Shown here: positions 6,175 to 38,180 of the stretch, one piece after another
Position numbering within the stretch: position 1 is the first letter of the stretch
How the letters are laid out: each line of letters opens with the position of its first letter
Assembly (NCBI GenBank): GCA_963965975.1
Contig: OZ014422.1
Location: forward strand, 5,869,701-5,933,700
Source of the DNA: Xestospongia bergquistia
Lineage: Eukaryota > Porifera > Demospongiae > Haplosclerida > Petrosiidae
DNA: 64,000 bases
Reading direction: 5' to 3'
The notes under the pieces: generated by a model
The model's input: only the letters and a program-made list of their open reading frames with translations
Told to the model about the DNA's origin: nothing
Database searches by the model: none
Program-made: the position numbers and the translations under genes

Positions 6175-7802
6175 TTATTCAGTATTTTTTGCTATTGTAG
6201 TATAAATGACAGCATCTGACTTTGGAGGTGATTGTTCTTTAGGTTTAGTGACAGATTTAGCTTTATTCTCCCAGTCAAGTACTGCATAAGTTGGTAATTC
6301 ATTTGAAAAGCCTGCTGAGCTGACAGTGACTGGTTCGTCCTTTATCTCTGTTTCTTTCTTTGATGAGTAAGCTGAGTTGGCAGTAACTTCTATCTCTGTT
6401 TCTTTCTTTTGTGGTTTTGAGGAGTATGGAGGTGGAGGTGAAGGAGGTCGTGGTGGCTTGTTTGACTGGTTTGACTTGGTGTGTTTTATCTCTGTTTCTT
6501 TCTCTTGCTGATTTGAAGAGTATGGAGGTGGCCGTGAAGGAGGTCGTGGTGGCTTGTTTGACTGGTTTGACTTGATATCAGTGAGAGGGTATGATTTATT
6601 ATCATCATTACATTTGCTAAATATAGACATACATTCACAACATGTATGCAAATAAATGAAACACATCACAATTACTAAGTAATATTGTATATATATATAC
6701 ATGTGTTGACAAATATGTGTGTAGGAGTAGGATATCAATGACGTGTTCACTCAAAGGCAAAGCATATATATTCTATCTAATAAGGCGATGTTCAATGGTA
6801 ATATATATGGTACAATTTTGTTATAATTAGAAACTTACCTTGTATTTATTGGTTGTTTTTGTAAGCTTATTTCTATATAAACAACATGATCATTTCATTG
6901 TTTATGAACATAAAGTGACTTACTGTGATGTGGTTGTCTTTTAACAACAACAAAGATGATGATAATTACAGCAGCTATCACTAGTACTAGTGCAGCCAAT
7001 AATATTAATACAGTAACTACTATAACAGCGACAGTAGTGGTATTATTACTAGTCTGATCTGAAGGTATTGGAGTGTTACTGATAACACCTGAAGGTACTG
7101 GGTTATTACTAATAACCCCTGAAAGTATTGGAGTGTTACTGGTAACATCAACAGTGGTTACTGTAGTAGCTCTAGTCATATAAAAGCTAACACCAGGGCT
7201 GACAGTAATTTTACTTTTTGTTTGACTAGTACTGACCACAGCTGTTTCTGTACATATCAATGGAGGTACTGATCCTACTGCACATCTTGCTTGAAGTGTT
7301 GACTGTGTCCCACTACAGGGAGTCATATATCCAGTATCAAACACTGGTGCTTTATTACTAGATATAAATACTTCATTATAAGAGGGATCATTAACTTGAC
7401 ACCAGTAATAACCAGTGTCTGTTTGAGGAGATGTTATAGTCAGATCTGTAATGATACGATCTATGTTAGTAAGATAGAATCCTCTGCTAGTATATATAGT
7501 AAATCTTCCTTGTTCCTCTGTAATATTTCTCCCACACTCACTGATATTCTTACTCCGGTACCAGTCTACAGTGACAGTAGTACTATCACTAGGTACTAGT
7601 ACTGAACATGTTAGTTGAAGGGCAGTCCTCACTGGATTACAATGATTAAAGCTAGTTACTGGTTGTCTCTCATATTGATAGTTTCCTGTACAACCTGTTA
7701 ATATATTAGTGAGTTACAATATATATTAATAACAATTAACTTACCAGTATTAGCTTTGACAGAAGTTGTTGAGAGAAGAATAAATAGGAAATATTGGAGC
7801 AT
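6175..7802 (-). CDS. Ig-receptor A: single V-like Ig domain, TM, class-1 (PPPY/ITIM) tail
   Basis: Type I membrane receptor of 434 aa. Exons 7802-7745 (signal peptide MLQYFLFILLSTTSVKANT), 7694-6924, 6872-6839 and 6616-6175 give an exact frame. The second exon holds the Ig domain (LQLTCSV, VDWYRSKN, DTGYYWCQVND), a Ser/Thr-rich stalk with two NTP repeats, and a Val/Ile-rich transmembrane helix ending VVVKRQPHH. The tail is proline-rich with two PPPYSS sites (PPxY type, expected to bind WW domains), SYPLTDI, PTYAVLDW and a C-terminal VIYTTI that fits the ITIM consensus (I/V/L/S)xYxx(L/V/I). The ligand is unknown; inhibitory signalling through SH2 phosphatases is an inference. It shares its tail class with receptor D only and is the 3'-most member of the array. 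Confidence 0.85.
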
Positions 7803-9224
7803 TTTTAACAAACTCCTTTGTTACTGGGGAATACCTAATAGTGTGGTATGTGGGCGTTTATATAATTAGTGTTGTGTGTTGGGAGTGTTCTACATGTTAT
7901 CACAATGTCTATTTGGGAATGAGTATTATTAACTATTAAAAACTCACAATTTTGTACTATAAATGAGTTTATCTTGATGCATAGATAATGTCTTGTTAGA
8001 GATATAGTGATATAAATAAGTATGACTAAAAGGCATGACTTTTGCTATGGTGCATTATAACAAGAGCCATCAAAAGGAAAATCCGTCAGTAAGATGTCTT
8101 GAGAGAACACAGTCAGACTATAAACTGTATTGCTCTTCAGTTCTTGTTAGTTAGGTATCTATCTATTGGTCTAAGAAAAATATGGTTAAATTAACTAATC
8201 ATTTACCATTCTTTGTGAGGACTATTAAAATCTTATATAGTATAGTATGTTCAATTACATAAGTACAGTATGTATATGGTAGAGAGCTAGATGATAGAAC
8301 TAAATATGTGGATGAGAATAATTGTGAGAAGAAGAAACAGAAAGTACTACAACATTTTGACAATAAAAACATTTGTTAATGCATCCCAATAATAACTTGT
8401 CCACATTAACATAATGTATTAATCTAAACTAAAGAGGAACATTTTGAAGAATAAGGTGTACTATATAAATACAAGTCATGAAGTATCTATATTATTAACA
8501 AATGCTGATATCTTTACAGTTACTTTAGTATCACTCTTCCTCACTACAGCACTGTATATAACAGGTTATATTGTTGATAATGGAGGAGTGTCCTCTGTAT
8601 TACTACAGACATCATGATCTGAATGAGAAAGTGTAAATGACGACATTTTTAATTGTAACTCTATGTAACCATAATGGCAAATAATCAACAGTAACATTCA
8701 CTTTCTACCAGGGAACACTGTGGCAGTTATTATGGCAACTGCCACATTGTTCATTGGTAGGAAGTAATAGTCACTGTAAGAAAATTTTCATTTTTGCAGT
8801 ACAGATTGTAGGATCTGTATGTTCACTAAAAAGAGGATGAGAAGGAGAGGGTGTAAATGTTAAGATATTGCCACTATCATTCCACTTTAACAAGATATAA
8901 CTTTATGAAAATGCTCTCATTGCTTTGTCCTTATAGATTATGATAATGTGATGTAAACTTAGTTAGCAGTTGTTTCTGATAGCTTGAGAGCTAAGTATAA
9001 AATCCATAAGCAACAATTTTGGTCGTAATAGAAACACAAATACATATACTACTTATTATAACATAATATTTGTATTCTGAAACAATATATTAAAATTCTT
9101 ACAAGTAACGTTATTACAATAACACATTGACTGAAACAAAGACAAACAATCATTGCAATTTTAGCATTACAATATAACATAACTGATTTAAAGTATACAT
9201 GCCTTATGTGACTATTATATGATA
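7803..9224 (-). other. Intergenic array DNA with orphan receptor tail exons
   Basis: No intact gene seen. About 8067-8175 resembles a decayed class-2 last exon. About 8478-8660 is a clear orphan class-3 tail exon: read on the minus strand it gives PVIYSAVVRKSDTKVTV and ends NNIDTS-stop. The remainder is AT-rich DNA that recurs between other array members (8020-8460 resembles 10550-10700 and 23100-23500), so the spacer was duplicated with the genes. Confidence 0.6.
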
Positions 9225-10351
9225 TTATTGTTGTGGTATATCATAAATATGTAAGTAGTCAGAAGGAGGATCAGTAACTGATGTATCTTGAGAGAGCACT
9301 GTCAGAATATAAGCTTTATTGTCTTCAGTTGTTACCATATCTGGCTGTTTGGGTATTGATCTAAGTACTAAACATGATTATTTAATGGAATAATAATTTC
9401 CTGACCTTTTTTCTTCTTTAGAAGGATTTTTCACATCTAGACTATTATAATAATTATTAAATATTTGTATGTGACAAATACCTTTTCTACATCTCTGCTT
9501 ATTCCACATTATAGTCAGTAGTCCACCTACTACTACTCCTAAACCAAACATTACTATACTGAGTATAACCAAAACTGATATCAGTCCCTTGTTATTACAA
9601 TTGGATTTTGACACACTTGGTGTCTTATAAGACAAAGTCATAGTTGATGACAAATAAGTGAGTTGTGAAAAATCCTTTAGTTTGAGGCTTTCAGTAGCTT
9701 TAGTAGATGTATGTACAGTACTGTTACCAGTATTAATACTTGATGTTACATATATTGATGTAGTTGTAGTATTTTGTTCAAAATCTGTACTTATAGATGT
9801 AATGGGTAAGACAAAACTAGATGTTGTAAGTACAAATATTGATGGAGGTATTGACCCTACTGCACATTTTGTTTGAAGTGTGTACTGTGTTCTACTGCAA
9901 ATAGTCATAGTTCCAGTATCAAACATTATTAACTTGACACCATCATTAACTTGACACCAGTAATAACCAGTGTCTGTTTGAGGAGATGTTATAGTCAGAT
10001 CTGTAGTGATACGATCTAAGATGTGAAGATCCTCTACTAGCATATATGGTAAATATTCCTTGTTCCTCTGTAATATATCTCCCACACTCACTGATATTCT
10101 TACTCCAGTACCAGTCTACAGAGACAGTAGTACTATCACTAGGTACTAATACTGAACATGTTAGTTGAAGGATAGTCCTCACTGGATTACAATGATTGAA
10201 GCTAGTTACTGGTTGTCTCTCATATTGATAGTTTCCTGTACAACCTGTCATTATATTAGTGAGTTACAATACATATTAATAACAATTAACTTACCAGTAT
10301 TAGCTTTGACGAAGTTGTTGAAAGAAGAATAAACAGGAAATATTGGAGCAC
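9225..10351 (-). pseudogene. Ig-receptor B: broken class-2 receptor
   Basis: Closest to receptor C. Lesions: the start codon in the signal-peptide exon is GTG instead of ATG (10349-10351); one base is missing in that exon (GACGAAG against GACAGAAG); about 8 bp are lost near 10015 in the Ig domain, shifting the frame; and about 40 bp coding the segment around SSNKAPVFDTG is replaced by a short duplicated TTAACTTGACACCA. The stalk, GxxxG-rich transmembrane helix and tail remain open: the last exon still reads KAYILTVLSQDTS...SDYLHIYDIPQQ and stops at 9225. The retained tail suggests recent loss or donor material for gene conversion. Confidence 0.8.
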
Positions 10352-11606
10352 TTTTAACAAACTGCTTTGCTACTAGGAATACTTAATAGTGTGGTATGTG
10401 GGCGTTTATATATGTTGGGTGTGTTCTAAATGTTATCACAATGGGAACGAATTATTAACTATTAAAAAATCACAATTTTTTTTACTATAAATGAGCTCAT
10501 CTTGCTTTGAATAATGCACAGACAATGTCTTGTTAGGGATGTAATGATAATAACAAGTATGACTAAAAGGCATAACTTTTGCTATGGTGTATTAGTATGT
10601 ATATGGTAGAGAGCAAGATGATGGAGCTAAATATTTAGACAAGAATAATTGTAAGAAGAAGATACAGAAAGTACTGCAACATTTTGACAACGAAAAAGCA
10701 TTTGTTTATGTGTCCTAATAATAACATATGTGTTTCTCACACGTCAACATTAACATAATCTATTAATCTAAACTAAAGAGGAATATTTTGAAGAATAAGG
10801 TATACTATATAAGTACAAGTCATGAAGTATCTATATTATCAACAAATGTTGATATCTTTATAGTCATTTAGTATCATTCTTCTTCACTACAGCACTGTAT
10901 ATAAATGTTTTATTGTTGACAATGGAGGAATGTCCTCTGTATTACTACAGACTTCTATCTATAAGACTAATACTGATTATAATCTTGTTAAAGTGGGATG
11001 AAAGTGGGAATATCTTTTAAAGTTTTACACCCTCTCCTTCTTCTCCTCCTTTTAGTAGCATACAGATCCTACAATCTGCACTGCAAAAATGAACATTTTC
11101 TTACAGTGACAATCACTTACTAACAATGAACAATGTGGCAGATGTCATAATAATTGTCAGTGTTCACTGGTACAAAGTGAATGTTACTGTTCATTGTTTG
11201 CCATGTATGGTTACACAGAGTTACAATTAAAAATGTCTTCATTTCCTTCTTCTCATTCAGAATTGTGTTATAAACTTTGGTACTTTTATGAAAATGCTCT
11301 GTCTTTATGGATTATGACAATGTGATGTAAACTTAGTTAGCAGTTGTTTCTGATAGCTTAAGAGGTAAGTATAAAACCTATAAGCAACAATTTTGGTTGT
11401 ATAGAAACATAATACTGATTATAACATAATTCTGTGGGTGAAGCTATACTTGTATTCTGAATAATATATATATTAAAACTCTTAAAACAACATTATTACA
11501 ATAACACATTGACTGAAACAAAGACAAACAATCATTGCAATTTTAACATTACAATATAACATAACTGATTTAAAGTGTATGTGCCTTTTTGTGACTATTA
11601 ATGTTA
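10352..11606 (-). other. Intergenic array DNA with an orphan class-3 tail exon
   Basis: About 10815-10960 is homologous to the class-3 tail exon (TFVDNIDTS end and a decayed VIYSAV area) but has indels. The rest repeats the spacer DNA seen at 8.7-9.2 kb, including a GTAAGAAAATTTTCATT-like block in inverted orientation. No gene is supported. Confidence 0.55.
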
Positions 11607-12766
11607 TTATTGTGGTGTATCATAAACATGTAAGTAGTCAGATGGAAGATCAGTAATTGAGATATATTGAGAGAAGAGTGTCAGACCATAAGCTGTATTG
11701 TCTTCAGTTGTTACCATATCTAGCTGTTTGGTTATTGATCTAAGCACTAAACATGATTATTTAATGGAATAATAAATTGCTGACCTTTTTTCTTCCTTAG
11801 AAGGATTTTTAACATCTAAACTATTGTAATGATTATTAATTATATGATTGTGACAAATACCTTTTCTACATTTCCACTTATTCCACAATACTGTCAGTAG
11901 TCCACCTAGTACACCTCCTAAACCAAACATTACTATACTGAGTACTATCAGACCTGATATCAGTCCCTTGTTATTACAATTGGATGTCGTCACACTTGGT
12001 GTATGATAATACAAACTCATAGTTGATGACGTATATGTGAGTTGTGAAACGTTCTTTACTTTGAGGCTTTCAGTGGGTTTAGTTGATACATATACAGTAC
12101 TGTTACCAGTATTAGTAATTGATGTAACATATATTAGTGTGGTTAAAGTACTTTGTACAAAGTCTGTACTTATAGATGTAATGGGTAAGACAAAATTAGA
12201 TGGTGTAAGTACACATATCAATGGAGGTACTGACCCTACTGCACATTTTGCTTGAAGTGTGGACTGTGTTCCACTGCAAATAGTCATAGTTCCAGTATCA
12301 AACACTGGTGCTTTATTACTAGATATAAATACTCCATTATAAGAGGGATCATTAACTTGACACCAGTAATAACCAGTGTCTGTTTGAGGAGATGTTATAG
12401 TCAGATCTTCAGTGATACGATCTATATTTAAAAAATGTGAAGATCCTCTGTTAGCATATATGGTAAATATTCCTTGTTCCTCTGTAATATATCTCCCACA
12501 CTCATTGATATTCTTACTCCAGTACCAGTCTACAGTGACAGTAGTACTATCACTAGGTACTAGTACTGAACATGTTAGTTGAAGGATAGTCCTCACTGGA
12601 TTACAATGATCAAAGCTAGTTACTGGTTGTCTCTCATATTGATAGTTTCCTGTACAACCTGTCATTATATTAGTGAGTTACAATACATATTAATAACAAT
12701 TAACTTACCAGTATTAGCTTTGACAGAAGTTGTTGAGAGAAGAATAAATAGGAAATATTGGAGCAT
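11607..12766 (-). CDS. Ig-receptor C: single V-like Ig domain, TM, class-2 tail
   Basis: Type I receptor of 339 aa, with the exon structure checked to the base: 12766-12709 (signal peptide MLQYFLFILLSTTSVKANT), 12658-11861, 11815-11785 (31 nt) and 11739-11607. The Ig exon gives CTGNYQYERQ, LQLTCSVLV, VDWYWSKN, DTGYYWCQVND, then conserved cysteines in TICSGTQ, AKCAVGS and PLICV: eight ectodomain cysteines in all. The transmembrane helix is FGLGGVLGGLLTVLW. The tail reads DVKNPSKEEKR, SITKQLDM, NTAYGLTLFSQ and ends SDYLHVYDTPQ; SDYLHV fits the ITIM consensus. Any signalling role is inferred from motifs. An apparent in-frame ATG at 12665 is inside the intron and is not the start. Confidence 0.88.
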
Positions 12767-13019: not shown

Positions 13020-13835
13020 CTTTATAAATGCATATAGTAGTCAGAAAAAGGATCAGTTAATAATATATTTGAGAGGACTGACTAAAAGTATATTGTCTTC
13101 AGTTCTTTTAGCTAGATATTGATCTAGAAAATAATGCTTAAATGAACTAATCATTTACCATTCCGTGTGAGGACTATTCAAATCTAAAATAGTATAATTA
13201 ATCAATCATATAAGTACAGTATGTGTATATATATCTCCTCTTATTACATGGTACTGTCAGTATGTAATTCACCAAACATTATATTCACTACTTCCAGACA
13301 TGATATCACTATGTACTGTGACACAGTTATTGCTTGTAGATGACTCATTAGATAAGATATAAATAGTGTTTATAAAACACGTTCAATTCCATTATCTAGA
13401 TGTATCAGTACTGTTGTTGAAGGCATATATGATATAGAACTACTTGATGGAACAGAACATGTGGATGATAATATTAATACAACTGCAGTTTGTTTGAAAT
13501 GTGGATTGTCTTTCATTAGTTAATTATAGTTCCAGTATCGAACACTGGTGCTTTATCACTAGATATTATTATGATATCATTAACTTGACAAGAGTCCTAA
13601 CTAGTGTCTGTCTCAGGAGACATTATAATCAAATCTGTGGTGGTATGATCTACATTAAATTGTGGTGCATATCCTCTAGTGGTATATATAGTAATTTTCT
13701 ATAATATTGATAATCTCTTGGACACCTGCATTTTTTTTTTAATAATGATATGAAGTATTAATATTTCTCACTAGTGTTTGCTTTGACAGAATCCTTGAAA
13801 GAAGAACAACTAGTTGAATTACCTTCATTAATCTA
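13020..13835 (-). pseudogene. Decayed Ig-receptor remnant (psi-1)
   Basis: Remnants in gene order on the minus strand: a signal-peptide-exon relic near 13775-13835, Ig-domain C-terminal half near 13500-13700 (recognisable APVFDTGT and conserved framework codons, with the YYWC area mutated), and a class-2 last-exon relic near 13030-13130. Frames are broken throughout and the N-terminal half of the Ig exon is missing. Confidence 0.65.
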
Positions 13836-14250: not shown

Positions 14251-16332
14251 TTATTTTTTTACTATTGTAGTATAAAGGACAGTATCAGATGAGGGAGAGG
14301 GTTTAGTGACAGGTTTGACTTTTTTCTGCCAGTCAAGTACTGCATAAGTTGGTACTTCATTTGAGGAGTCTGCTGAGCTAGCAGTGACTGGTATGTTCTT
14401 TATCTCCATTTCTTTCTCTTGTGGTTCTGAAGAGCCTGATGAGTTAGTAGTGACTGGTTTGTCTTTTATCTCTGTTTCTTTCTTTTGTGGCTTTGAAGAG
14501 TATGGAGGTGGGCGTGAAGGAGGTTGTGAAGGCTTGCTTGACTGGCTTGACTTCTTGTCTTTTATCTCTGTTTCTTTCTCCTGTGGCTTTGAATGGCCTA
14601 CTGAACTGGCAGTGATTGGTGTGTCCTTTACCTCTCTTTCTTTCTCTCGTGGTGTTGAAGATCCTACTGAGCTGGAAGTCATTGGTGTGTCCTTTATCTT
14701 TGTTTCTTTTTCCTGTGGCTTGGAAAAGTATGGAGGTGGTTGTGAAGGAGATTGTGGTGGCTTGCTTGACTGGTTTGACTTGGTATCTTTTATCTCTGTT
14801 TGTTTCTTTTGTGGTTTTGAGGAGTATGCTGAGCAGGCAGTGACTGATTTATCTTTTATCTCTGTTTCTTTCTTTGAAGAGTAAGGAGGTGGCTGTGAAG
14901 GAGGTCGTAATGGCTTGTATGACTGGTTTGACTTGATATCAGTGAGAGAGTAATATTGATTATCCACTTTATGTTTGCTAAATGTAAACACACATTAACT
15001 ACATGTATTGAAGTAAATGGAATGGCAACACAATTTATTAGGTAATGTATTCATATTGTATTTATGTCCTGCTATATAGTACTATAATTCTAGTAGTATA
15101 GTATGTAGGAATAGATAGTAATGAAATTAGCGACATGTTCATTTAAAAACAAAGCATATATGCTTATCCAATTAGGCAAGTGTTCAATAATAATATATTA
15201 TGGAATTTTGTCATAATGTAAGCAATCAACATACCTTATATTTGTAAATTGATATTGTAAGACTACTCCTATACAAATAAGAAAAACACATGACTATATT
15301 ATAAAAAGTGACTTACTGCGATCTGGTTGTCTTTTGATGACAATAAAGATGATGATAATTACAGCAGCTATCACTAGTATTAGTGTAGCCAATAATATTA
15401 ATACAGTAACTACTACTACAATGACAGTAGTGGTATTATTACTAGTCCGGTCTGAAAGTACTGGAGTATTACTGATAACACCTGAAGATATGGAAGGTAC
15501 TACTACAGCAATAGTTGTGGTAATACTGCTAGTCTGACTTGAACTTACTGGAGTATTACTGATAAAACCTGAAGGTACAGAAGATACTACTATAGTAATA
15601 ATAGTTGTAATACTGCTAGTCTGACTTGAAGGTACTGGAGTATTACTGATACCATTAACAAGAGTAGAAGTAATACGAAATGAAGTAGAAAAAATGGTAT
15701 CAAGTAAAATACTGGTAACAACTCCATAACTTGTTGGACTGACTGCAGTAGTTTCAGCATATGTACTAGTACTTACAGTTGTAGTTGTTGACCTAATACA
15801 CATTAATGATGGTGATGATCCTACTGCACAGATTGATTGATTTGTGTACTGTGTTCCACTACATATAGTCATAGTTCCAGTATCAAACACTGGTGCTTTA
15901 TTACTAGATATAAATATTCCATTATAAGAGGGATCATTAACTTGACACCAGTAATAACCAGTGTCATTCTGAGGAGACAATACATATAGATCTGTAACGA
16001 TACGATTATATCCTCTACTAGCATATATGGTAAATCTTCCTTGTTCCTCTGTAATATATCTCCCACACTCACTAATATTCTTACTCCAGTACCAGTCTAC
16101 AGTGACAGTAGTACTATCACTAGGTACTAGTACTGAACATGTTAGTTGAAGGACAGGCCTCACTGGATTACAAGTAGTAAAGTTAGCTGGTGGTTGTTTC
16201 TCATATTGATAGTTTCCTGTACAAACTGTTAATGCATTTTCAAACTATAATGCATTATAATAACATTAACTTACCATCAGTAGCTTTGACAGAAGTGGTT
16301 GAAAGAAGGATAAGGAGGAAATATTGGAACAT
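14251..16332 (-). CDS. Ig-receptor D: single V-like Ig domain, long stalk, expanded class-1 tail
   Basis: Type I receptor of 575 aa. Exons 16332-16275 (signal peptide MFQYFLLILLSTTSVKA), 16225-15317, 15268-15235 and 14977-14251 keep frame exactly. The Ig domain has the array framework (LQLTCSV, VDWYWSKN, DTGYYWCQVND). The stalk carries repeated SNTPV and SSQTSS segments. The transmembrane helix is Val/Ile/Leu-rich. The tail is a run of modules built as KPxxPPSxPPPYSSKPQKKETEIKD-like units with three PPPY sites, then EVPTYAVLDW and a C-terminal VLYTTI (ITIM consensus). It is an expanded version of receptor A's tail. WW-domain and SH2 binding are inferences from motifs. Confidence 0.87.
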
Positions 16333-16599: not shown

Positions 16600-17358
16600 A
16601 GTCAGTAGTTCCTCAAATATCACTTTACTCATTTACTACTAGACCTCTGCTATTGCTTGTCTCATTAGGTGAGATATAGATGGAGATTGTTAGTGATGAT
16701 CAACAAAAGGTAGTTAATAATGAACATGACACAAATATAATTTATGTATCAGTACTTTTAGCAAATTTTCTTGTTGAAGGGAGTTATGGTAGATAACTAC
16801 TTGATGAAACTGAATATATTGATGAGAATACTAATACAAATGTAGTTTGTTCAAAATGTGTATTTTCTTCTAATACAGTCAGTCATAGTTCCAATATCAA
16901 ACACTCGTACTTTATTGCTAGATATAAATACTCCATCATAAGAGGAATCATCAACTTGACACCAGTAATAACCAGTGTCTGTCTCTGGAGATCGTATAGT
17001 TAGATCTATAATGATATGATCTATTTTAGTAAGACAGGATCCTCTGACAAGAGGAAAATATGTCAATTCCTTAATCCTTTGTAAATGTTCCTCTCACACT
17101 CATTGATGCTCTTATTCCATTACTAGTGTACACTGACAGTAATACTAGCACTAGATAGTAGTACTTGAACATATTCTAATAGAAGTGTAATTCTCACTGG
17201 ATTATTGTTATGAGTAAACCTAGGTGTAATTGCTTCTAATTGATAGCTTCCTGAAAATCCTGTCAATATATTAGAGAACTATGGTTAATGCTCTAACTTA
17301 GCCTTGACAGAGGTAGTTGAAATAAGAAAAAACAGAATATTCTATATCATTTTGATAG
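16600..17358 (-). pseudogene. Decayed Ig-receptor remnant E (psi-2)
   Basis: The middle of the Ig exon is still open at 16851-17066 (DLTIRSPETDTGYYWCQVDDSSYDGVFISSNK), but upstream codons for the CxVLVPSDSTT segment are mutated, the VDWYW region is lost to substitutions, and the signal-peptide exon near 17300-17358 lacks a good donor. A relic of the transmembrane region may extend to about 16600. I found no usable full frame. Confidence 0.7.
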
Positions 17359-17950: not shown

Positions 17951-17954
17951 ACAA

Positions 17955-18160
17955 GTCATGAAGTATCTATATTATCAACAAATGTTGATATCTTTACAGT
18001 CACTTTAGTATCATTCTTCTTCACTACAGTACTATATATAACAGGTTCTATTGTTGATAATGGATGAGTTTCCTCTGTATTACTACAGACTACAGAATCT
18101 GAACTAGAAGGAGGAAATGAAGACATTTTTAATTGTAACTCTGTGTAAGTTATAACTTTA
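17955..18160 (-). pseudogene. Orphan class-3 receptor tail exon
   Basis: Minus-strand reading is homologous to the final exon of receptor H: relics of QLKMSSFPP, SDSVVCSNTE, EPVIYS and STFVDNIDTS-stop. It lies 3' of receptor F's own stop, so it is either a relic of a lost class-3 gene or an alternative terminal exon. One VIYSxV codon is altered (AGCACTG to AGTACTG on the plus strand). Confidence 0.6.
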
Positions 18161-26393: not shown

Positions 26394-28555
26394 TTAACAT
26401 ATCAGAGGAGTGGCCTCTGTATTACTATAGATTGTAAGATCTGAAGTAGTAGTAGTAGGAGGAGGAGAGGGTGTAAACTTTAACTTGTTACCACTATCAT
26501 CCCACTCTAAGTCTGTATAACTTATAACCTTGTTGACTTTAGTGACTGGTATCTCTTCTTTTGAAGTAGTTATATGAGAAGAATAAGGAGTAGGACAGGG
26601 AGGTGGTAGTTGTTTAGTAGTTGATGGACTTTTGATATCATCATATTTTGATTCATCATCCTTTTCATCAACAATAAGTTCATTCTTTCTCACTGATGTA
26701 ACTATGTCATCATATTGTGGATTACTAAACAAGAGGTAAAGTACATATATGTGAGTCATATGATCATCCTTTTACCTTTCATCTGATGATGACAATGTCT
26801 GCATAAATGTATCTATTACAACAAATACAACATGATAGTTGATATAACTAAAGTAATCAATTACAATAACTTACCATTGTTAGTTTTATGTGTATTTGTT
26901 TCTTTAATTTTGTTGACATTATTAACTTGTGTCTCTTCTTTTGAAGTAGTGACATGAGAAGAATAAGGAGTAGGACAAGGAGGTGGTAGTTTTTTAGTAG
27001 TTGATGGAACTGTGACACTGTCATAGTCTGTTTTATCTTCCTTTTCATTGAGATCAGATTCATTCTTTTTAAATTGAGAATAAATGTCATCATATTGTTC
27101 ATGACTATAGAAGACAGATGTATTGAGTGAGTTATCATTCTTCTAACCTTAAAATCACCAAAGTCTTTTTTAGTTTTAATTCACTTTGTATCATATCTAT
27201 TATAACAAAAATAACAAGATAGTTTATAATAGTAAGTGTTCTATTAATGTCACTTACCATTGTTAGTTTTGTATGTTTTCCTTCTTTTAATAATAACAAT
27301 CACTACTATGATACCACATGATAACATACTTATAATCAGTACTATTACTAATGACATAGATATTATTAGTGTAGTGTTGTTAGTAGTAATAGGAACTGCA
27401 GTGTCATTGTATAAAGGAGTAGAAACAATACTGGTAACAATGCTATTTGTTAAATGCATTACTGTGTTTAATGATATCAATGATAGATTTGAAGCATTAC
27501 TATAGCTACTTGTACTGCCATGAACTGTAGCTATATCACTTTTGTGATTTAAGGTGGTATTTGCTACAGTATTCATATAATTGGTTGAATTTATTGTTAA
27601 AATAATGCTTGTTGTTATTAATGAAGTAGTTGTATACATTTTAGAACTTGTATTATTATGATCTGTAATTATACTATTTATATGATTTAAGCTGGTATCT
27701 GCTACAGTCTTGTTATCACTGGTGGAAGTAGCTGTTAAAATAATGCTTGTTGTTATTAATGAAGTAGTTGTATACATTTCAGTACTTGTGCTGTCTAATA
27801 AATGATCTGCTTTAGTTGAGCTAAGATTTGTCACAGATTTTAAAATTTTCTTTGATGTAGTTCCAGACACTGTAGTTACTGTAATGGTCACAGTACTTGA
27901 CATACTTTTTATGTTACTTATAGACATAGCTGTTTCACTATAGCTACTTGTTAATATATTATTGTACATGGATGGAGAAACTGTTTGAGTTGATATGAAG
28001 CACATGAGAAAGTTTGGAGTGTTGATATTTGATGTAATTGCACAAGTTGTCATGCTCATAAATTGTTTCCCACTGCAGATAGTCATAGTTCCAGTATCAA
28101 ATACTGGTGCTTTATTACTAAATATAAATACTCCATTATAAGAGGGATCATTAACTTGACACCAGTAATAACCAGTGTCTGTGTGAGGAGACTCTATTGT
28201 CAGATCTGTAGTGATACGATCTACATTAGTAAGATAGAATCCTCTGTTAGTATATATAGTAAATTTTCCTTGTTCCTCTGTAATATTCACCCCACACTTA
28301 TTGACATTCTTACTCCAGTACCAGTCTACAGTGACTGTAGTACTATCACTAGGTACTAGTACTGAACATGTTAATTGAAGGATAGTCATCACTGGATTAC
28401 AATCAGTAAAGTTAGTTGGTGGTTGTCTCTCATATTGATAGTTTCCTGGACAATCTAAAAGATTAATAATAACAATTAACAAAAATCTTACTAATCTTAC
28501 CTTCAGCTAATATAAGATAGCTCAATACCCACAATAATATCAACAACAAGCTCAT
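26394..28555 (-). CDS. Ig-receptor I: single V-like Ig domain, long mucin-like stalk, long class-3 tail
   Basis: Signal peptide MSLLLILLWVLSYLILAEG (28555-28501). The Ig exon (about 28456 to 27256) carries LQLTCSVLV, VDWYWSKN, DTGYYWCQVND and a Ser/Thr-rich stalk with two tandem copies of a segment containing MYTTTSLITTSIILT, then a helix around VIVLIISMLSCGIIVVIVI. Tail exons lie at about 27165-27212, 26873-27110, 26778-26813 and 26394-26727. They encode EQYDDIYSQF, TDYDSV (TxYxxV, ITSM form), PQYDDI, SKYDDI and ISYTDL (both ITIM form), and LTIYSNTE (YxN, a Grb2-SH2 type site). It stops after ATPLIC, so the C-terminal VIYSAV of H and L is missing. Confidence 0.82.
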
Positions 28556-28865: not shown

Positions 28866-30313
28866 TCACTGTTGTGGTATATCATAAACATGTAAGTAGT
28901 CAGATGGACGATCATCAATGTCTGTGGTATCTTGAGAGAAGACAGTCAGACCATAAGCTGTATTGTCTTCAGTTATAAACACATCTTGTTGAGTGTGTAT
29001 GTTTCTATAAAACAAAAAAGTTATTGAAAAGTTAATAATTTAGTTTACCGACCTCATTCCCTTACTGGTAGGACTTCTTGTATCTATTAATTTATCACAA
29101 ATTGAATAGTAATAAATTTATTACTACTGCTCTACCTTTTCCTCCTCTCTTCTTATTCCACAGTACAGTCAGTAGTCCACCTAGTACACCTCCTAGACCA
29201 AACATTATTATACTGAGTAAAACCAAACCTGATATTAGTTCTATAGTATCATTATCATAACTGTAATTACTACAGTTGATATATCTCGCTAATGTCAGTT
29301 TTGATGAATGTCCTGTAATTGTACTGCTTTGATGACTTGAGAAAATATCACTTGTATGCTTTACTAAATTACTGCTTGTTATTAATGAAGTAGTTGTATA
29401 CATTTCAGAACCTGTACTATCATGATCAGTAATTGTACTATTTATATGATTTAAGCTGGTATCTGCTACAATCTTGTTATCACTGGTGGAAGTAGCTGTT
29501 AAAATAATGCTTGTTGTTATTAATGAAGTAGTTGTATACATTTCAGTGTTTGTGCTGTCTAATAAATGATCTGCTTTAGTTGAGTTAAGATTTGTCACAG
29601 ATTCTAAAATTTTCTTTGATGTAGTTCCAGACACTGTAGTTACTGTAATGGTCACAGTACTTGACATACTTTTTATGTTACTTATAGACATAGCTGTTTC
29701 ACTATAGCTACTTGTTAACATATTATTGTACATGGATGGAGAAACTGTTTGAGTTAATATGAAGCACATGAGAAAGTTTGGAGTGTTGATATTTGATGTA
29801 ATTGCACAAGTTGTCATGATCACATATTGTTTACTACATATAGTCATAGTTCCAGTATCAAACACTGGTGCTTTATTACTAGATGTAAATACTCCATTAT
29901 AAGATGGATCATTAACTTGACACCAGTAATAACCAGTGTTTGTCTGAGGAGACTCTATTGTCAGATCTGTAGTGATACGATCTACATTAGTAAGATAGAA
30001 TCGTCTGCTAGTATATGTAGTAAATCTTCCTTGTTCCTCTATAATATATCTCCCACACTCACTAATATTCTTATTCCAGTACCAGTCTACAGTGACAGTA
30101 GTACTATCACTAGGTACTAGTGCTGTACATGTTAGTTGAAGGACAGTCTTCACTGGATTACAATGAGTAAAGTTAGTTGGTGGTTGTTTCTCATATTGAT
30201 AGTTTCCTGGACAATCTAAAAGATTAATAATAATAATTAACAAAAATCTTACTAATCTTACCTTCAGCCAAAATAAGATAGCTCAATACCCACAATAATG
30301 TAAAAAAGTTCAT
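28866..30313 (-). CDS. Ig-receptor J: mosaic receptor, class-3-like ectodomain with class-2 membrane helix and tail
   Basis: Signal peptide MNFFTLLWVLSYLILAEG starts at 30313. The Ig exon runs from about 30215 to 29138: CPGNYQYEKQPPTNF, LQLTCTALV, VDWYWNKN, NTGYYWCQVND, then a Ser/Thr stalk almost identical to receptor I (SETAMSISNIKSMSS, TTSKKIL), but the end of the stalk and the helix FGLGGVLGGLLTVLW are class 2. Tail exons read DTRSPTSKGM and then NIHTQQDVFITEDNTAYGLTVFSQ...SDYLHVYDIPQQ with stop at 28866 (SDYLHV fits ITIM). The protein switches between two subfamilies within one exon, a sign of recombination or gene conversion. Confidence 0.86.
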
Positions 30314-30785: not shown

Positions 30786-31755
30786 CTACATTGAGTATCG
30801 ATATCCAATTCCTCCAGGCATATATAATACAATGATCTTATTACTAGCCCACTCTAATCTGACATAACTTGAGTAGGTTGAAGGGGAGGAGCTAGAAATA
30901 GCTGGCCAACTATGAATACACTTAGGAGTAAAGGTAATCATACCACCTAGTAGAGATGAACCAATCTGTGTGTGTGTGTGTGTGTGTGTATGTGTGTGTG
31001 TGTGAAAGAGAGAGTGACATAATCAAGTTACATGACGTTTCCTTACATGCCAGACATGTAGTGTTGAGTCTCCATAAGAATAAGTTGCTAAGAGCTTGCC
31101 ATCTTCTGAGAAACACAGAACAGCCACTTGATGAGTGTGGGCATTGACCATTTGAGTTTTACGTTGTTTGAGGTCATACACACCCACTTGTCCAGAACGT
31201 GCCCCTACAGCTAGCCTCCGAGTTTTCAGAGAATAACTAACATTTGGTAATCTATGTAGCAACAATATGAACATATATTATATGATATATAACTATAATA
31301 GTACAGTTAAATTACATGTACATGTACTTACTTAGTTAAAGATGGAAATAATTCATTGAAATTTCTTCTTTTCAATTCTTCTTGATCTAAACAAAACAAG
31401 ACAATATCAACAATCTAATATATAATATATAATATCAATTTATAATATGATATAATGTCCCTTACATCAAGTAGTTGTAATGAGACAAGTGATGAACACT
31501 TATCTAATACAGTACGTATTAATACTAATATGTCCTCTTTAGCAGCTGGTAATAGAATATTAGCTGGACTCACTATACCTGCAGTATTAGGGGTGGAGAC
31601 TGCCTCACCTACCAAAAGAGTACTCAAAGTAAAACATCTATTACTATGTACTTACTTGTATTGGTGGTAGTGAGGAGTGAGGGAAAGGTGCTCCATGTTG
31701 AGATCCTAAGAACAATGAGACTTCTTTAGCTAAAGCATTAACAACTGTTACTGGA
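30786..31755 (-). pseudogene. Duplicated 3' fragment of WDR7, frameshifted
   Basis: Copy of the last exons of the WDR7 gene at 38639-39600. Recognisable exons: QHGAPFPHSSLPPIQ (about 31650-31755, cut mid-exon), NTAGIVSPANILLPAAKED (about 31467-31610), ELKRRNFNELFPSLTK, then LKTRRLAVGARSGQVGVYD...LLATYSYGDSTLHVWHVRK, and the terminal exon ending RYSM-stop at 30786. One G is missing in a run near 31591 (4 G against 5 in the full gene), which shifts the frame just after the splice acceptor. There is no 5' part or promoter of WDR7. The breakpoint at about 31755 joins DNA like that 3' of receptor M. Confidence 0.88.
30966..31006. repeat. (TG)n microsatellite
   Basis: TG run in the intron of the WDR7 fragment, much longer than the matching tract at 38822-38832 in the intact gene. 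Confidence 0.85.
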
Positions 31756-32231
31756 CATTATATAAAATAACACAATGACATTACTTAATGTTTTGATTAA
31801 AGTAATGGATTAAGTTATTAAGTTATTAACTTTGTTATTTATTTAAACATAGCATTGCATTGAATAATACAACAATTTCAACATATTAATTGATGAATTA
31901 TATAAACTATATAATTAACATAAAATAACACAATACTTAATGGTCATTGATGTTATGGTCCCATAAATGTATATTTCAAACTATTATCAATGTTTTCACT
32001 TACTGTGTTATGAAGTCAAACATCGTTATGGTAAGATATTTTAGATGACTTATATTATAAGGTGTACATTCTCATAAATAAATCTATAGAATAGGTGCAT
32101 ATAAACATCAAAGAGCTATAAAATAGAGAGCAGTGCTCTACTAAGATATTAACATAGTTACTTATTGCGAACATAATTTTGCTCTGTACAAATAATTACA
32201 GCACATTTGTTGATGAATTATATACAAGGTA
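31756..32231. other. Intergenic DNA matching the 3' flank of receptor M
   Basis: About 31930-32060 matches about 36590-36750 (CCCATAAATGTATATTTCAAACTATTATCAATG type). It is the 3' flank of receptor K. No gene. Confidence 0.65.
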
Positions 32232-33566
32232 TCATTGTTGTGGTATATCATAAACATGTAAGTAGTCAGATGGATGATCATCAGACCATAAGCTGTATTG
32301 TCTTCAGTTGTAAATACATCTTGTTGAGTGGGTGTGTTTCTATAAAACAAATAGATCGTTGAAATGTTAATAATGATATAATAATAATCACTAATCTACT
32401 GACCTCATTCTCATACTGGTGTGAATCTCTGTATCTATCAATTTGTTTCAAATGAAATATATAATAAATTATTACTACTGCTCTACCTTTTCCTCCTCTC
32501 TTCTTATTCCACAATACAGTCAGTAGTCCACTTAGTACACCTCCAAGACCAAACATTATTACACTGAGTAAAATCAGACCTGAGATCAGTTCTATAGCGT
32601 TGTTATCATTACTATTACCACAGTTGGTATATGTCACACAGGAGCTAGACTGATATACTGTCAGTTGTAATGAATGTTCTGCAGTTGTACTGCTTTCATG
32701 ACTTGAGAAAATATCACTTGTATGTTTAACTGAAATACTGCTTGTTATTAATGATGTAGTTGAATACATTTCAACACTTGGACTATAGAACAAATGATTT
32801 GTTTGAATTGAGATAATAGCTTCTAAACTTTTCCTTGATGTATTTACAGATGTTGCAGTTATTTTAGTGGTCATAATATTTAAAATACTTCTTATGCTAC
32901 TCATAGACACAGTCATTTCACTATAGCTACTTCTTAACATACTCTTATACATAGTAGGAGATACTGTTTGATTTGATATAAAGCACATGAGAGGACTCGG
33001 AGTGTTAATGTTTAATGCAACTGCACAGGTTATCATGATCTCATATTGGTGTCCACTACATACAGTCATAGTTCCAGTATCAAACACTGGTGCATTATTA
33101 CTAGATATAAATACTCCATTAGAAGAGGGATCATTAACTTGACACCAGTAATAACCAGTGTCTGTCTGAGGAGACTTTATAGTCAGAAGTGTAATGATCC
33201 GATTTACATTAGCAGGAAGTTGTGGATCAGGTAATCTGTAGGTATTTCTTATAAATCTTCCTTGTTCCTCTGTAATATATCTCCCACATTCACTGATATT
33301 CTTACTCCAGTACAGGTCTACAGCGACAGTAGTACTATCATAAAGGTACTAATACATAACATCCAAGTTGAAGAGTTGTCTTCACTGGATTACATTGTTT
33401 GAAAGTGGTTGGTGGCTAGCCCTGTTGCTCATATTGATAGTCTCCTGGACAAATTTTAGAATTTTAATGAAAATGACTTAGACATTGATAACTTACCAGT
33501 ATTAGCATCAATCATCACAATGAGATAGCTCAACAGTATGCACAATTTTATAACCAAGGCTGCCAT
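32232..33566 (-). pseudogene. Ig-receptor K: broken class-2 receptor
   Basis: The signal-peptide exon is intact (MAALVIKLCILLSYLIVIDANTG from 33566). The Ig exon has an in-frame TAG just after DYQYEQQG (about 33419) and a one-base insertion at the PSDST codons (about 33342), which shifts frame. From there the domain is still readable (VDLYWSKN, DTGYYWCQVND, APVFDTGTMTVCSG), as is a stalk close to receptor M and the helix FGLGGVLSGLLTVLW. The last exon has lost the TVFSQDTS segment: TAYGL is followed directly by the DDHPSDYLH codons in a shifted frame. Three independent lesions make expression as a receptor unlikely. Confidence 0.85.
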
Positions 33567-34375
33567 CCCTACAAAATTTTTCTGACCTATTATATTGTAG
33601 TAGATTACACTATGAGCTAGACTACTAACATGGTAACATAAACACCAACAGCCTAATATATATTATTTTACATGACATTTTCAATAACTGTGTTTGTTGA
33701 CATTATTGATGTAATGTATGTTTATGGATTTGTACAAATAATTTGTAACTGAATTATTGTAATAAACATGGAGCTGGTTTGTGTTAGTATGATTTTAGTA
33801 GTTATGGTGGTGTTTGTGGGACACATCATTATTTGACTAGAGGGGTTATTTATTTTTGAACTGTTAGATATGGTTACGGATACAAAACACTGATTGATAC
33901 GATACTTAATAAGAATTTAGAAAGCTAATTGCTTCAATTGTTGCACAGTTTTTCATACCTAACAAACTGTTGTGCAGTACATTTGTTGTTTGTGATTCCA
34001 GTATCAAACAATGGTACTTTATTACTAGATACTACAGTCACAATCAATTTAACGTCTTTGTCTTGACATTTAAAACTATATTAAATTGCTTTAGTAACAT
34101 CACAAATTGTATTGTTTTGATGTTTGTTTGATTATTATTATTAAATGACCTAACAAAATTTTAGTATAGGAACTGAGGAAAGCAAAATTAATAAGCTACT
34201 TGACAACATTGAATTTGACCAATACAAATAATAACCATTACTATTCACTGTGGTGTATCATAAACATGTATGTAATCAGAAAGTACTAGTCAGCAGAATT
34301 ACTTGAAATTACAAGGGCACACCTACATTTCTATACAGTAAAAAGGAAGGATAAAGTGTATCATGTAAGAACAAG
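33567..34375. other. Intergenic array DNA with decayed receptor relics
   Basis: About 33965-34050 retains the VFDTG/SSNK area of an Ig exon, and about 34245-34290 the YLHVYDTPQ end of a class-2 tail, both degenerate. No gene. Confidence 0.55.
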
Positions 34376-36473
34376 TTATGAAGTATCTATATTATCAACA
34401 AATGTTGATATCATTACAGTCACTTTAGTATCATTCTTCTTCACTACAGCACTGTATATAACAGGTTCTGTTGTTGATAATGGAGGAGTGGCCTCTGTAT
34501 TACTACAGACTACAGGATCTAAATTAGTAGTAGGAGGAGGAGTAGAGGGTGTAAACAATAACTTGTTACTACTATCATCCCACTCTAAGTCTGTATAACT
34601 TATAACTTTGTTGACTTTAGTGACTGGTGTCTCTTCTTTTGCAGTAGTTATATGAGAAGAATAAGGATTAGGACAGGGAGGTGGTAGTTGTTTGGAAGTT
34701 GATGGATTTTTAATGTCATCATATTTTGGTTCATCATCCTTTTTATTAACATTAGGTTCATCCTTTCTCTCTGATGTAATAATATCATCATATTGTGGAA
34801 TACTACACAGGAGATAAGGTACATATATGTGAGTTTTGTCATCCTTTACCTTTCATCTGGTGATGACACTGTCTGTATAAATGTATCTATTACAACAAAC
34901 ACAATATGACAATTGATATAATTAAAGTAGTCCATTACAGTCACTTACTATTGTTAGTTTTATGTGAATCTTTCATTTTGTTGACATTAGTGACTTGTTT
35001 CTCTTCTTTTGAAGTATTGATATGAGAAGAATAAGGAGTAGGACAAGAAGGTGGTGGTTGTTTAGTAGTTGATGGATCTTTGACACTGTCATATTCTGTT
35101 TGATCTTCCTTGTCATTGAGATCAGATTCATCTTTTTTAAATTGATAATAAATGTCATCATATTGTTTACGACTATAGAAGACAAATGAATTAAATGAGT
35201 CATTACTGTCCTAACCTTAAAATTACCAAAGTCTGTTTTAGTTTTAATTCACTTTTTATCATATCTATTATAACAAAAAGAACAAGATAGTTTATAATAG
35301 TAAGGTGTTGTATTAATGTCACTTACCATTGTTAGTCCTGTGTGTTTTCCTTTTTTTAATGATAACCATCACTACTATGACACTACATGCTAATATAGTC
35401 ATAATTAGTAGTAATATTAGTAATGATATAGATATTATTAGTGTAGTGTTGTTAGTAGTAAAGGGAACTGCAGCATCATTGTATACAGGAGTAGAGACAG
35501 TAGTGGTAATAATGCTATTTTTAAAATGCATTCCTGTCTTTAATGGTATCGATGATGTAATTAAAGTAGTATACATATTATTACTTGTACTATTCTGACC
35601 TGGAACTGTATGACTTTTCTGAATTGAACTAGTTTCTACTGTAGTCTTCCTATCATTGGTCAAATTATCCATTGAAATAATGCTTGTTGATGATGTAGTT
35701 GTATACATACTAGTACTCGTACTATAGAACAAATGATCTGTTGCAATTACTAAACTCTTTCTTGATGTATTTCCAGATATTGTAGTCACTGTAGTGGTCA
35801 CAATACTTGAAATACTTTTTATGTCACCTATAGATATAGTTGTTTCATTATAGCCACTTGTTAATATACTATTGTAAATGGTAGGAGATACTGTTTGAGT
35901 TGATATAAAGCACGTGAAAGGACTTGGAGTGTTGATGTTTGATATAATTGCACAGGTTGTCACACTTATAGATTGCCTCCCATTACAAAAAGTCATAGTA
36001 CCAGTATCAAACACTGGTGCTTTATTACTAGATATAAATACTCCATTATAAGAGGGATCATTAACTTGACACCAGTAATAACCAGTGTCTGACCTAGGAG
36101 ACTCTATAGTCAGATCTTTAGTAATACGATCTGCATTAAATTGTGGTGCATATTGTCTACTAGTGTGTATGTCAAATCTTCCTTGTTCCTCTGTAATATA
36201 TCTCCCACACTCACTGATATTCTTACTCCAGTACCAGTCTACAGTGACAGTAGTACTATCATGAGGTACTAGTACTGTACATTCTAGTTGAAGGACAGTC
36301 CTCACTGGATTACAATGAGTAAAGTTAGTTGGTGGTTGTCTATTATATTGATAGTTTCCAGGACAACCTTAAATAACAATTATTACAATTAACAACATTT
36401 TACAAATCTTACCTTCAGTCAATATAATACGGCTTAATACCAACAATAGAGTTAACAACAGATTCAGGATCAT
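34376..36473 (-). CDS. Ig-receptor L: single V-like Ig domain, full class-3 tail
   Basis: 612-aa type I receptor with six exons that close exactly: 36473-36413 (signal peptide MILNLLLTLLLVLSRIILTEG), 36367-35327, 35264-35216, 35172-34949, about 34834-34870 and 34802-34376. The Ig domain has LQLECTVLV, VDWYWSKN, DTGYYWCQVND. A long Ser/Thr stalk leads to an Ile-rich transmembrane helix. The tail contains KQYDDIYYQF, TEYDSV (TxYxxV), PQYDDI, PKYDDI, ISYTDLEW (ITIM form), VVCSNTE, VIYSAVV (ITIM form) and ends STFVDNIDTS. The exon containing TEYDSV ends A|GT instead of the usual G|GT, so the joined codon is AAT rather than GAT. Partner of receptor M in the duplicated block. Confidence 0.87.
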
Positions 36474-36862
36474 CACTGCACACTGATGTGTGTACTAAAC
36501 TGTAACAGGTTAGTATGCCCACTAGTTTGTCATATACACCCACACATTGGTTTATGAAATAAGTCACAACATATCAATCATCATAAAACAACACACTGCT
36601 TAATGGTTTGATTGATATCATGTTCCCATAAACGTATATTTCAAACTATTATCAATGTTTTTACTTACTATGTAATGAAGTCAAACATTGTTATTGTGAG
36701 TTATTTTAGATTATTTATATTATAAATATACACATAAAAGAGATTTAAAATAGAGAGCAATGCTCTACTAAGATATTAATATAGTTATTTATTGTGAACA
36801 TAACACTGCATTGAACAATACAATAATTACAACATATTGATTGATGAATTGCTATCATGCTG

Positions 36863-38180
36863 TCATTGTTGTGGTATATCATAAACATGTAAGTAGTCAG
36901 AAGGATGATCATCAAAGGCTGAGGTATCTTGAGAGAACACTGTCAGGCCATAAGCTGTATTATCTTCAGTTGTAAAATCATCTGGTTGAGTGTGTGTGTT
37001 TCTATAAAGCAAAAATACCATTGAAAGATTAATAATCTACTTTACTGACCTCATTCCCTTACTGACTGGACTCCTTATATCTATTAATTTATCACAAATT
37101 AAATAATAAAATTATTACTACTGCTCTACCTTTTCCTCCTCTCTTCTTATTCCACAGTACAGTCAGTAGTCCACCTAGTACACCTCCTAGACCAAACATT
37201 ACTATACTGAATACAATCAGACCTGAGATCAGTTCTATAGTGTTGTTATCATTACTGTTACCACAGTTGGTATATGTCACACAGGAGCTAGACTGATATA
37301 CTGTCAGTTGTAATGAATGTTCTGTAGTTGTGCTGCTTTCGTGACTTGGGAAAATATCACTTGTATGTTTAACTGAATTACTGCTTGTCATTAATGATTT
37401 AGTTGTATACATTTTAACACTTGAACTATAGAATGAATGATCTGTTTGAATTGAGATAAGATCTTTTATAGTTTCTAAACTCTTCTTTGATGTAGTTGAA
37501 GATGTTGCAGTTATTGTAATAATCATAGCATTTAAAAGACTACTCGTAGACACAGGTGTTTCACTATAGCTACTTCTGAACATACTATTGTAAATGGTAG
37601 GAGATACTGTTTGAGTTGATATAAAGCACGTGAAAGGACTTGGAGTGTTGATGTTTGATATAATTGCACAGGTTGTCACACTTATAGATTGCCCCCCATT
37701 ACAAAAAGTCATAGTACCAGTATCAAACACTGGTGCTTTATTACTAGATATAAATACTCTATTATAAGAGGGATCATTAACTTGACACCAGTAATAACCA
37801 GTGTCTGTTTGAGGAGATGTTATAGTCAGATCTTTAGTAATACGATCTGCATTAAATTGTGGTGCATATAGTCTACTAGTGTGTATGTCAAATCTTCCTT
37901 GTTCCTCTGTAATATATCTCCCACATTCATTGATATTCTTACTCCAGTACCAGTCTACAGTAACAGTAGTACTATCATGAGGTACTAGTACTCCACATTC
38001 TAGTTGAAGGACAGTCCTCACTGGATTACAATGAGTAAAGTTAGTTGGTGGTTGTCTATAATATTGATAGTTTCCTGGACAACCTTAAAGAACAATTATA
38101 ACAAATAAAAATCTTATAATCTTACCTTCAGTTAATATAAAATAGCTCAATACCCACAATAGTGTTAACAACAAGTTCAT
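36863..38180 (-). CDS. Ig-receptor M: single V-like Ig domain, class-2 tail
   Basis: 392-aa type I receptor with exons 38180-38126 (signal peptide MNLLLTLLWVLSYFILTEG), 38083-37130, 37080-37050 (31 nt) and 37001-36863, all in frame. The Ig domain: LQLECGVLV, VDWYWSKN, DTGYYWCQVND. Its N-terminal half and first stalk part are nearly identical to receptor L, while the later stalk and the helix FGLGGVLGGLLTVLW match K and J. The tail: DIRSPVSKGM, NTHTQPDDFTTEDNTAYGLTVFSQ, SDYLHVYDIPQQ, with SDYLHV fitting ITIM. It is the 5'-most intact receptor and lies about 460 bp from the WDR7 stop. Confidence 0.88.

Follow-up and report, generated by a model that had tools for sequence, protein, structure and literature searches.

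The Alr receptors of Hydractinia are encoded by clustered, highly polymorphic immunoglobulin superfamily (IgSF) genes, some of them potential pseudogenes, and are thought to bind homophilically (PMC11876637; published systems are described here from extracts of the papers cited). Descriptions of Alr genes give them V-set and I-set domains (PMC11999971), and motifs of the immunoreceptor tyrosine-based inhibitory (ITIM) and activation (ITAM) types are reported on Hydractinia candidate genes (PMC12065747). Here we describe a tandem gene array at positions 6175-38180 of a 64-kb window of contig OZ014422.1 of the sponge Xestospongia bergquistia, the window being the whole stretch of DNA analysed, out of a 146.46-Mb genome in 21 contigs. 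The array runs on the minus strand, from the ATG of its first gene at 38180 to the stop codon of its last at 6175, and its intact genes predict receptors with one immunoglobulin (Ig) domain and a tail carrying ITIM-type motifs. As described for Alr, the sponge array consists of clustered IgSF receptors with broken copies and ITIM-type motifs; unlike Alr, with its V-set plus I-set domains, the sponge genes have one Ig each, possess three tail classes that share the Ig domain, and belong to another phylum.

In Botryllus, the FcoR protein, an IgSF member encoded at the allorecognition locus next to its partner gene, contains a V-type Ig, a sushi and two C2-type Ig domains, and FcoR tails can hold an ITIM, a hemITAM or a core Y-x-x-I/L/V motif (PMC12065747). 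The extracts thus show these fester co-receptors sharing with the sponge genes an IgSF ectodomain and a tyrosine-motif tail, but the sponge genes have one Ig only. A different likeness concerns the Ig surface. Among 40 isoforms of sDscam the outward face of strands A, B, E and D (ABED) is poorly conserved and the CFG face highly conserved; Ig1 of sDscam and Ig7 of Dscam1 form homophilic ABED dimers in which the residue before the B-strand Cys makes contact (PMC10154414). The sponge domain shares with these chelicerate and arthropod domains, as presented there, the variable outward ABED face, the conserved CFG face and the key position before the B-strand Cys. Dscam and sDscam differ in being multi-domain adhesion molecules diversified by splicing or by tandem 5' cassettes, and homophily, shown for them, is proposed by analogy for the sponge. 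In vertebrates, teleost NITR and mammalian KIR, LILR, CD300 and SIRP are tandem, fast-evolving families of ITIM-tailed Ig receptors, often paired in the sense that near-identical ectodomains stand on different tails. Families of the NITR/KIR/LILR type mostly bind via complementarity-determining region (CDR) or CFG surfaces, and in NITR the V domain has a J-like G strand. The sponge Ig domain shows none: the J-like GxG is absent from its G strand, where most copies read NKAPVFDTG.

Earlier sponge recognition candidates or Ig proteins, namely the aggregation factors and the Geodia Ig receptor tyrosine kinase, differ from this array in architecture as far as the extracts describe them, and no description of an ITIM-tailed Ig array in a sponge was found among the open-licence literature matches listed. 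By analogy, the array may work like Alr (compared by description) or like paired inhibitory receptors, while being assigned to none of those families. We propose that its products are type I surface receptors which would distinguish self from non-self, signal from ITIMs to SHP-type phosphatases and probably bind homophilically; as a complete explanation, we give this reading a probability of about 0.48.

Receptor design and tyrosine motifs

A sequence-only reading of the window had proposed at least ten apparently intact and six broken genes. Complete spliced open reading frames (ORFs; 339-632 amino acids) were obtained for all ten proposed as intact (g38, g36, g30, g28, g25, g22, g19, g16, g12 and g7), and the broken copies numbered seven. 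The proposed design, a signal-peptide exon, an exon for Ig domain, stalk and transmembrane (TM) helix, then tail exons, fits all ten: each gene has one Ig exon and predicts a signal peptide, a single Ig domain, a Ser/Thr-rich stalk, one TM helix and a tyrosine tail. The models were predicted from open frames, splice signals and paralogue conservation. The array almost certainly encodes receptors of this design.

The tails fall into three classes. Class A comprises g7 (6175-7802, 434 residues; exons 7802-7745, 7694-6924, 6872-6839 and 6616-6175) and g16 (14251-16332, 575 residues), which carry PPPY motifs, PTYAVL and a C-terminal ITIM, VIYTTI in g7 and VLYTTI in g16. Class B tails are short and contain TAYGLT followed, at the end, by SDYLHV or SDYLCV running into YDIP or YDTP; they are found in g12 (11607-12766, 339 residues; SDYLHV, YDTP), g19 (18488-19644, 339; SDYLCV, YDTP), g22 (21729-22889, 339; SDYLCV, YDIP), g30 (28866-30313, 433; SDYLHV, YDIP) and g38 (36863-38180, 392; SDYLHV, YDIP). 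Class C consists of g25 (24037-25444, 421 residues; variant C2), with ITYAEL and then VIYSAV; g36 (34376-36473, 612 residues, six exons), with ISYTDL and then VIYSAV; and g28 (26394-28555, 632 residues), with ISYTDL. YDDI and YDSV motifs lie upstream of the ITIMs in g28 and g36, the latter motif within TDYDSV and TEYDSV, respectively. The motifs listed in the sequence-only reading (VIYTTI, VLYTTI, SDYLHV, SDYLCV, ITYAEL, ISYTDL, SKYDDI, VIYSAV, TDYDSV and TEYDSV) are all in the spliced frame.

With the ITIM defined strictly as [ILVS]xYxx[ILV], the ten tails contain 14 occurrences (including SQYISI in g12 and SKYDDI in g28) and every tail at least one, against a mean of 2.3 in 5000 composition-preserving shuffles, none of which reached 14 (p = 2e-4, the floor of 5000 shuffles). 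In the ectodomains plus TM helices, taken as control, strict ITIMs were fewer than expected (4 against 12.7). Shuffling with this control rules out a chance origin of the tail motifs, and the excess persisted with one gene per class (5 against 0.52, p = 4e-4; 4 against 0.86, p = 0.01). The motifs therefore stand above background, which favours the sequence-only reading. In an alignment of 27 class C tails, made up of 22 ENA proteins and five frames from the window (two of which are remnants, orphan or from broken genes), ISYTDL/ITYAEL keeps its -2 Ile, its Tyr and its +3 Leu in all 27 rows; invariant columns number 25 of the 128 covered by at least 20 rows, so that three of three ITIM positions has p = 0.007. 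In VIYSAV, Val at -2 is kept in 24/24 aligned tails and Tyr in 24/25, the +3 residue being V, I or L. Because the -2 position is conserved, an ITIM is favoured over a plain YxxPhi sorting signal. Mean pairwise omega (ratio of nonsynonymous to synonymous change) was 0.54 among class B tails, where single pairs ranged from 0.32 to 1.14; the only class A pair gave 0.70.

Ig fold and its variable face

For the Ig domain of g7, with the distant relatives on contigs C1 and C13 added to the alignment, AlphaFold2 predicted a confident Ig fold with V-like Cys-Cys spacing (predicted local distance difference test, pLDDT, 87), as the sequence-only reading would have it; for g38, in the absence of those relatives, the prediction was weak (64.6). 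The B- and F-strand Cys, the C-strand Trp and DxGxYxC are all present. Structural matches of the predicted fold are a mixture of I-set and V-set domains, which agrees with the term V-like given to the domain at the outset, the Pfam cut-off for V-set being unreached.

Per-site entropy was calculated over 72 sequences, comprising the ten window genes and 62 ENA proteins (one of the C1 type); three distant relatives were excluded, and 45-49 rows cover the N-terminus. Within strict DSSP strands, mean entropy was 1.04 bits in A, B, D and E and 0.34 in C, C', F and G (p = 0.002). For B, D and E the outward residues averaged 1.54 bits, against 0.67 for inward residues (p = 0.012) and 0.29 for outward residues of C and F (p = 0.002). 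Widening the limits of B, D and E by one residue gave 1.15 bits for ABED and 1.69 for the outward residues, with smaller p values. Strand B alternates strictly, residues 25, 27, 29 and 31 showing 2.4-2.9 bits and residues 26, 28, 30 and 32 less than 0.6; no other residue of strands A to G varies as much as residue 29, which directly precedes the B-strand Cys. Across the 72 sequences there is hardly any change in strands C, F and G or in the CDR3-like F-G loop. The pattern of a variable face is firm. When minimum codon changes were counted among the ten window genes, the outward B, D and E codons showed, under the wider limits, 48.5 nonsynonymous and 6.5 synonymous changes (omega 2.52, p = 0.019); codons in the rest of the domain had omega values of 0.93 and 0.80 in the counts with strict and wider limits. 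Positive selection on the outward B, D and E codons is only suggestive.

SHP-type phosphatases and other SH2 proteins

The genome contains at least 81 SH2 matches and seven complete single-exon genes of the SHP type, with two SH2 domains and a protein tyrosine phosphatase (PTP) domain. Five of these, with two broken or partial genes, form a tandem array on contig C3 (1265000-1284800); single complete genes are found at 916 kb of C3 and at 8.318 Mb of C7. An additional match to both SH2 domains, at 199.6 kb of C6, has internal stops and is perhaps spread over exons. The one SHP-type ORF tested against solved structures matched SHP-2 (PTPN11) best (E = 1e-152). Pfam recognized PTP and SH2 domains in all seven ORFs submitted (one cut by the locus end). 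The Cys and Arg of the PTP signature are retained in seven of seven. Two complete copies carry WPE for WPD, a replacement that may lower PTP activity. A cluster at 1.62-1.70 Mb of C6 includes ten SH2 matches in frames of 398-500 amino acids, which, from frame size, would be Src-type kinases. Judged from tails and phosphatases together, ITIM-to-SHP signalling by the array receptors is likely.

Apparent recombination of recognition and signalling modules

Identity of the TM segment follows tail class (0.768 within classes against 0.493 between, p = 6e-4), as does that of the tail (0.789 against 0.487, p = 0.001), whereas Ig identity is not sorted by class (0.891 against 0.888, p = 0.30) and is slightly higher between neighbours (0.905 against 0.885, p = 0.013). 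Thus, in the neighbouring pairs g36/g38 (C/B), g28/g30 (C/B) and g7/g12 (A/B) the Ig domains are 0.96, 0.92 and 0.94 alike and the TM segments just 0.44-0.49. Since TM and tail sort by class and the Ig does not, recognition and signalling modules appear to have been recombined, and exchange of a 5' recognition module between tails would be the simplest reading. Synonymous divergence (dS) points the same way: it averages 0.127 in the Ig domain (45 pairs) and, by class, 0.36-1.03 in stalk and TM. The latter values exclude youth of the array as the cause of the low Ig dS, and conversion or swapping of the 5' module would fit better.

Comparison of the window genes with ENA proteins (72 proteins given, 66 rows) pointed to an ENA contig of 175,754 bases as probably a second haplotype of the array. 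Of its proteins, P0065 is 98-99% like g38 and P0045 92-94% like g25; P0008 matches g7 at 83% in the Ig domain and 89% in stalk and TM. P0037 has an Ig domain 93% like that of g25 and a stalk and TM nearest class B. Between matched genes of window and contig the Ig domain differs by 2 to 17% (rows for six of the contig's seven proteins). Array proteins on other ENA contigs are more distant, 54 of 58 being only 50-80% like the nearest window gene in stalk plus TM. Database clusters have one or two members for most array proteins and 3-9 for relatives outside the array; these sizes hint at polymorphism but, the contig count being 1 throughout, were not used as evidence of it.

Array layout, relatives and neighbouring sequences

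GT..AG introns were found at the printed borders of the array genes, those of g28 being read off the DNA. Exon lengths place two introns in phase 1 in all ten genes, the signal-peptide intron and the one that follows the TM exon. In all three classes the TM exon is directly followed by a short exon of 31-49 nt, of length 3n+1, which fixes the next borders. In class B it measures 31 nt, and its borders recur in each of the seven copies aligned (in g12 this exon 3 was placed by paralogue alignment); in the class A genes and g25 it measures 34 nt. In g36 and g28 it is 49 nt long, and a further short exon, of 37 nt, is present. For the class B tails, intron retention or read-through was rejected as a model because the phase-1 donor does not fit the phase-2 acceptor, a mismatch settled by the 31-nt exon.

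The broken copies, like the orphan tail remnants interspersed with them, are all on the minus strand. Two are class B receptors: one at 9228-10351, with frame breaks and a gap in the Ig domain and a signal peptide lacking its ATG, and one at 32235-33451, with a stop and a frame break in the Ig and a break in the tail. The others are an Ig fragment at 13525-13698, an Ig copy with a signal peptide remnant at 16875-17335, an Ig copy at 19792-20071, an Ig copy with a class C tail behind it at 20607-21138, and a mere short Ig fragment at 33967-34074 with a weak match (E = 0.003). Orphan class C tails lie at 8479-8902 (tblastn match, containing a stop), at 10823-10952 and, downstream of g19, at 17959-18198 (VITYTEL, VIYSTV). 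By eye, gene order places a class C gene or tail remnant downstream of six of the seven class B genes and broken copies, 32235-33451 being the exception, as if the duplicated unit of the array were a B-C pair.

A protein search placed the rest of the family in the genome on three contigs: C1 has an intact gene and a fragment, C11 another fragment, and C13 two distant genes (35%). The class C tail is confined to the array (8/8 genome matches). Matches to the Ig domain in other sequence sources, which the sequence-only reading had proposed to look for, were found: the protein database gave 80 for the Ig exon (8 of them the window's own), 24 for the tail (2 own) and 33 for the distant set (2 own), and those other than the window's own are labelled ena, one of them also lgn. 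Between sources, the relatives on C1 and C13 can be aligned at 76-83%, one C13 gene being conserved in another source at about 83%. Inspected by eye, the C13 genes, in opposite orientation at 3185-5428 (+) and 6085-7703 (-) of the fetched locus, each consist of an Ig-TM frame and, after it, a large frame with many YxxL/I/V motifs; they are possible founder-type genes. The C1 relative (at 7412-8308 of its fetched locus and downstream) adjoins tandem epidermal growth factor-like receptor genes.

Large Ig arrays occur elsewhere, at 1.04-1.34 and 7.20-7.32 Mb of C7, 5.92-6.07 Mb of C11, 10.96-11.33 Mb of C2 and 7.86-8.42 Mb of C3. In one 10-kb stretch of each, viewed by eye, the single-V-Ig/ITIM-tail design was not met; these arrays hold tandem Ig modules, Ig beside parts resembling adhesion G protein-coupled receptors, scavenger receptor cysteine-rich parts and Ig-tyrosine kinases, and C11 carries a separate Ig-TM-tyrosine-kinase array.

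Exons of a flanking WD40-repeat gene at 38642-41088 recur as a fragment at 30789-31757 within the array, which indicates unequal exchange at the array edge. Farther out, 57244-60736 and 62480-63060 are occupied by a minisatellite of very large size and with strand skew, read as GNTGIV repeats on one strand and as LPTIPV repeats on the other; between its two parts (61072-62422, minus strand) lie Cys/His-rich ORFs that look transposon-like by eye and for which Pfam returned no match. The genome had been called sponge-like from the window alone. The mitochondrial contig, C21, starts with trnF, small rRNA, trnG, trnV and large rRNA, the order seen in demosponges. A silicatein-type Cys-to-Ser change was found in none of the 30 loci scanned out of 76 Peptidase_C1 matches.

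Interpretation and alternatives

The sequence-only reading, which saw in the sponge-like genome a receptor array that might serve allorecognition or immune inhibition, is supported. In the mechanism we propose, the variable ABED face would bind a face on a neighbouring cell that is the same or nearly the same, as in Dscam. Src-type kinases would phosphorylate the tails, their SH2 domains binding YDDI, which is close to the pYEEI optimum of Src-type SH2 domains; the phosphorylated ITIMs would recruit SHP phosphatases and restrain rejection or phagocytosis. Loss of the match between genetically different sponges would remove the brake. Near-identical Ig domains on different tails might allow a single binding event to be read in several ways, as in paired receptors. 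By analogy with Dscam, homophilic recognition through the ABED face is a tentative but serious possibility, and the chances that allorecognition is the purpose of the array fall at or somewhat short of even. It is more doubtful that the locus is, in full, a polymorphic sponge self-recognition locus with a homophilic ABED identity tag, three tails supplied via recombination and a co-expanded SHP set.

Several observations weigh against the self/non-self reading. All ten proteins miss the curated Pfam V-set score of 26 bits (E = 5.7e-5 to 0.073), and the domain is therefore filed as V-like rather than V-set proper; a phmmer search of the PDB with one Ig exon gave four weak matches, none an Ig chain. 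Inward and outward positions were assigned by strand order and residue parity from the conserved Cys, Trp, Phe and Leu rather than by computed exposure. Under strict strand limits the outward B, D and E codons show a weak excess (36 nonsynonymous and 6 synonymous changes, omega 2.06, p = 0.06); positive selection across the whole Ig domain was not supported (omega 1.11, p = 0.35, from minimum changes; 0.97 from pairwise means), and the ten genes recombine and are hence non-independent in the selection test. As to the tails, g28 stops ahead of the distal VIYSAV and thus has no distal ITIM, and the predicted tail of the C1 relative ends, by eye, in EPLYDSK with no ITIM. Class C tails have a mean omega of 1.00 (g28/g36, 1.32 over 212 codons), so that their motifs are conserved without overall purifying selection, contrary to strong constraint. 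The ITIM cores, moreover, also fit the AP-2 sorting signal YxxPhi.

The last point opens the way to a family for cell sorting or adhesion with no immune role, in which the tyrosine motifs would serve mainly as endocytosis signals and the PPxY motifs as ubiquitin-ligase sites; every ITIM core fits the former, and class A tails bear PPPY. Yet the -2 position, irrelevant to YxxPhi, is Ile in all 27 class C tails, the motif excess holds with the -2 requirement included, and SHP phosphatases are multiplied in the genome, which together make this explanation improbable. SHP set and receptor anatomy alike would, on the other hand, serve inhibitory or paired immune receptors whose targets are microbes or symbionts instead of conspecifics, in the manner of NITR, LILR or CD300, with a variable face shaped by pathogens or microbiota and ITIM-SHP signalling tuning phagocytosis. 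The turnover of the array, fast-looking at 50-80% beside the 76-83% of the outside relatives, would suit such receptors. However, variability peaks on the outward ABED residues and spares the CFG face and the CDR3-like F-G region, the surfaces that serve most heterophilic V-set receptors, and we consider a microbe-reading role unlikely. The near-invariance of strands C, F and G and of the F-G loop might instead reflect a single conserved partner on a fixed CFG face, as in a phagocytosis brake of the SIRP-alpha/CD47 kind, ABED variation being evasion-driven or neutral; the single V-like domain with an ITIM tail and the weak nonsynonymous excess on ABED both fit. But the variation in strand B alternates in the outward phase, and homophilic ABED domains equally predict a conserved CFG face, so that a fixed partner seems distinctly improbable.

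Implications

According to the extract of a 2025 Botryllus review, there is no conservation among the allorecognition candidates of sponges, cnidarians and ascidians, and ITIM-type motifs have been reported for the latter two (PMC12065747). If our reading is true, a sponge Ig array with ITIM tails and a homophilic look, in a genome with multiplied SHP genes, would make a third case beside cnidarians and ascidians and bear on the receptors behind sponge graft rejection; ITIM-type allorecognition in sponges, cnidarians and chordates would then reflect an old phosphatase switch on which their receptors converged. In vertebrates such tail motifs switch immune cells off, and it is the matching phosphatase that has extra copies in the sponge genome. 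The array would thus offer a concrete candidate for self/non-self discrimination in a very early-branching animal.

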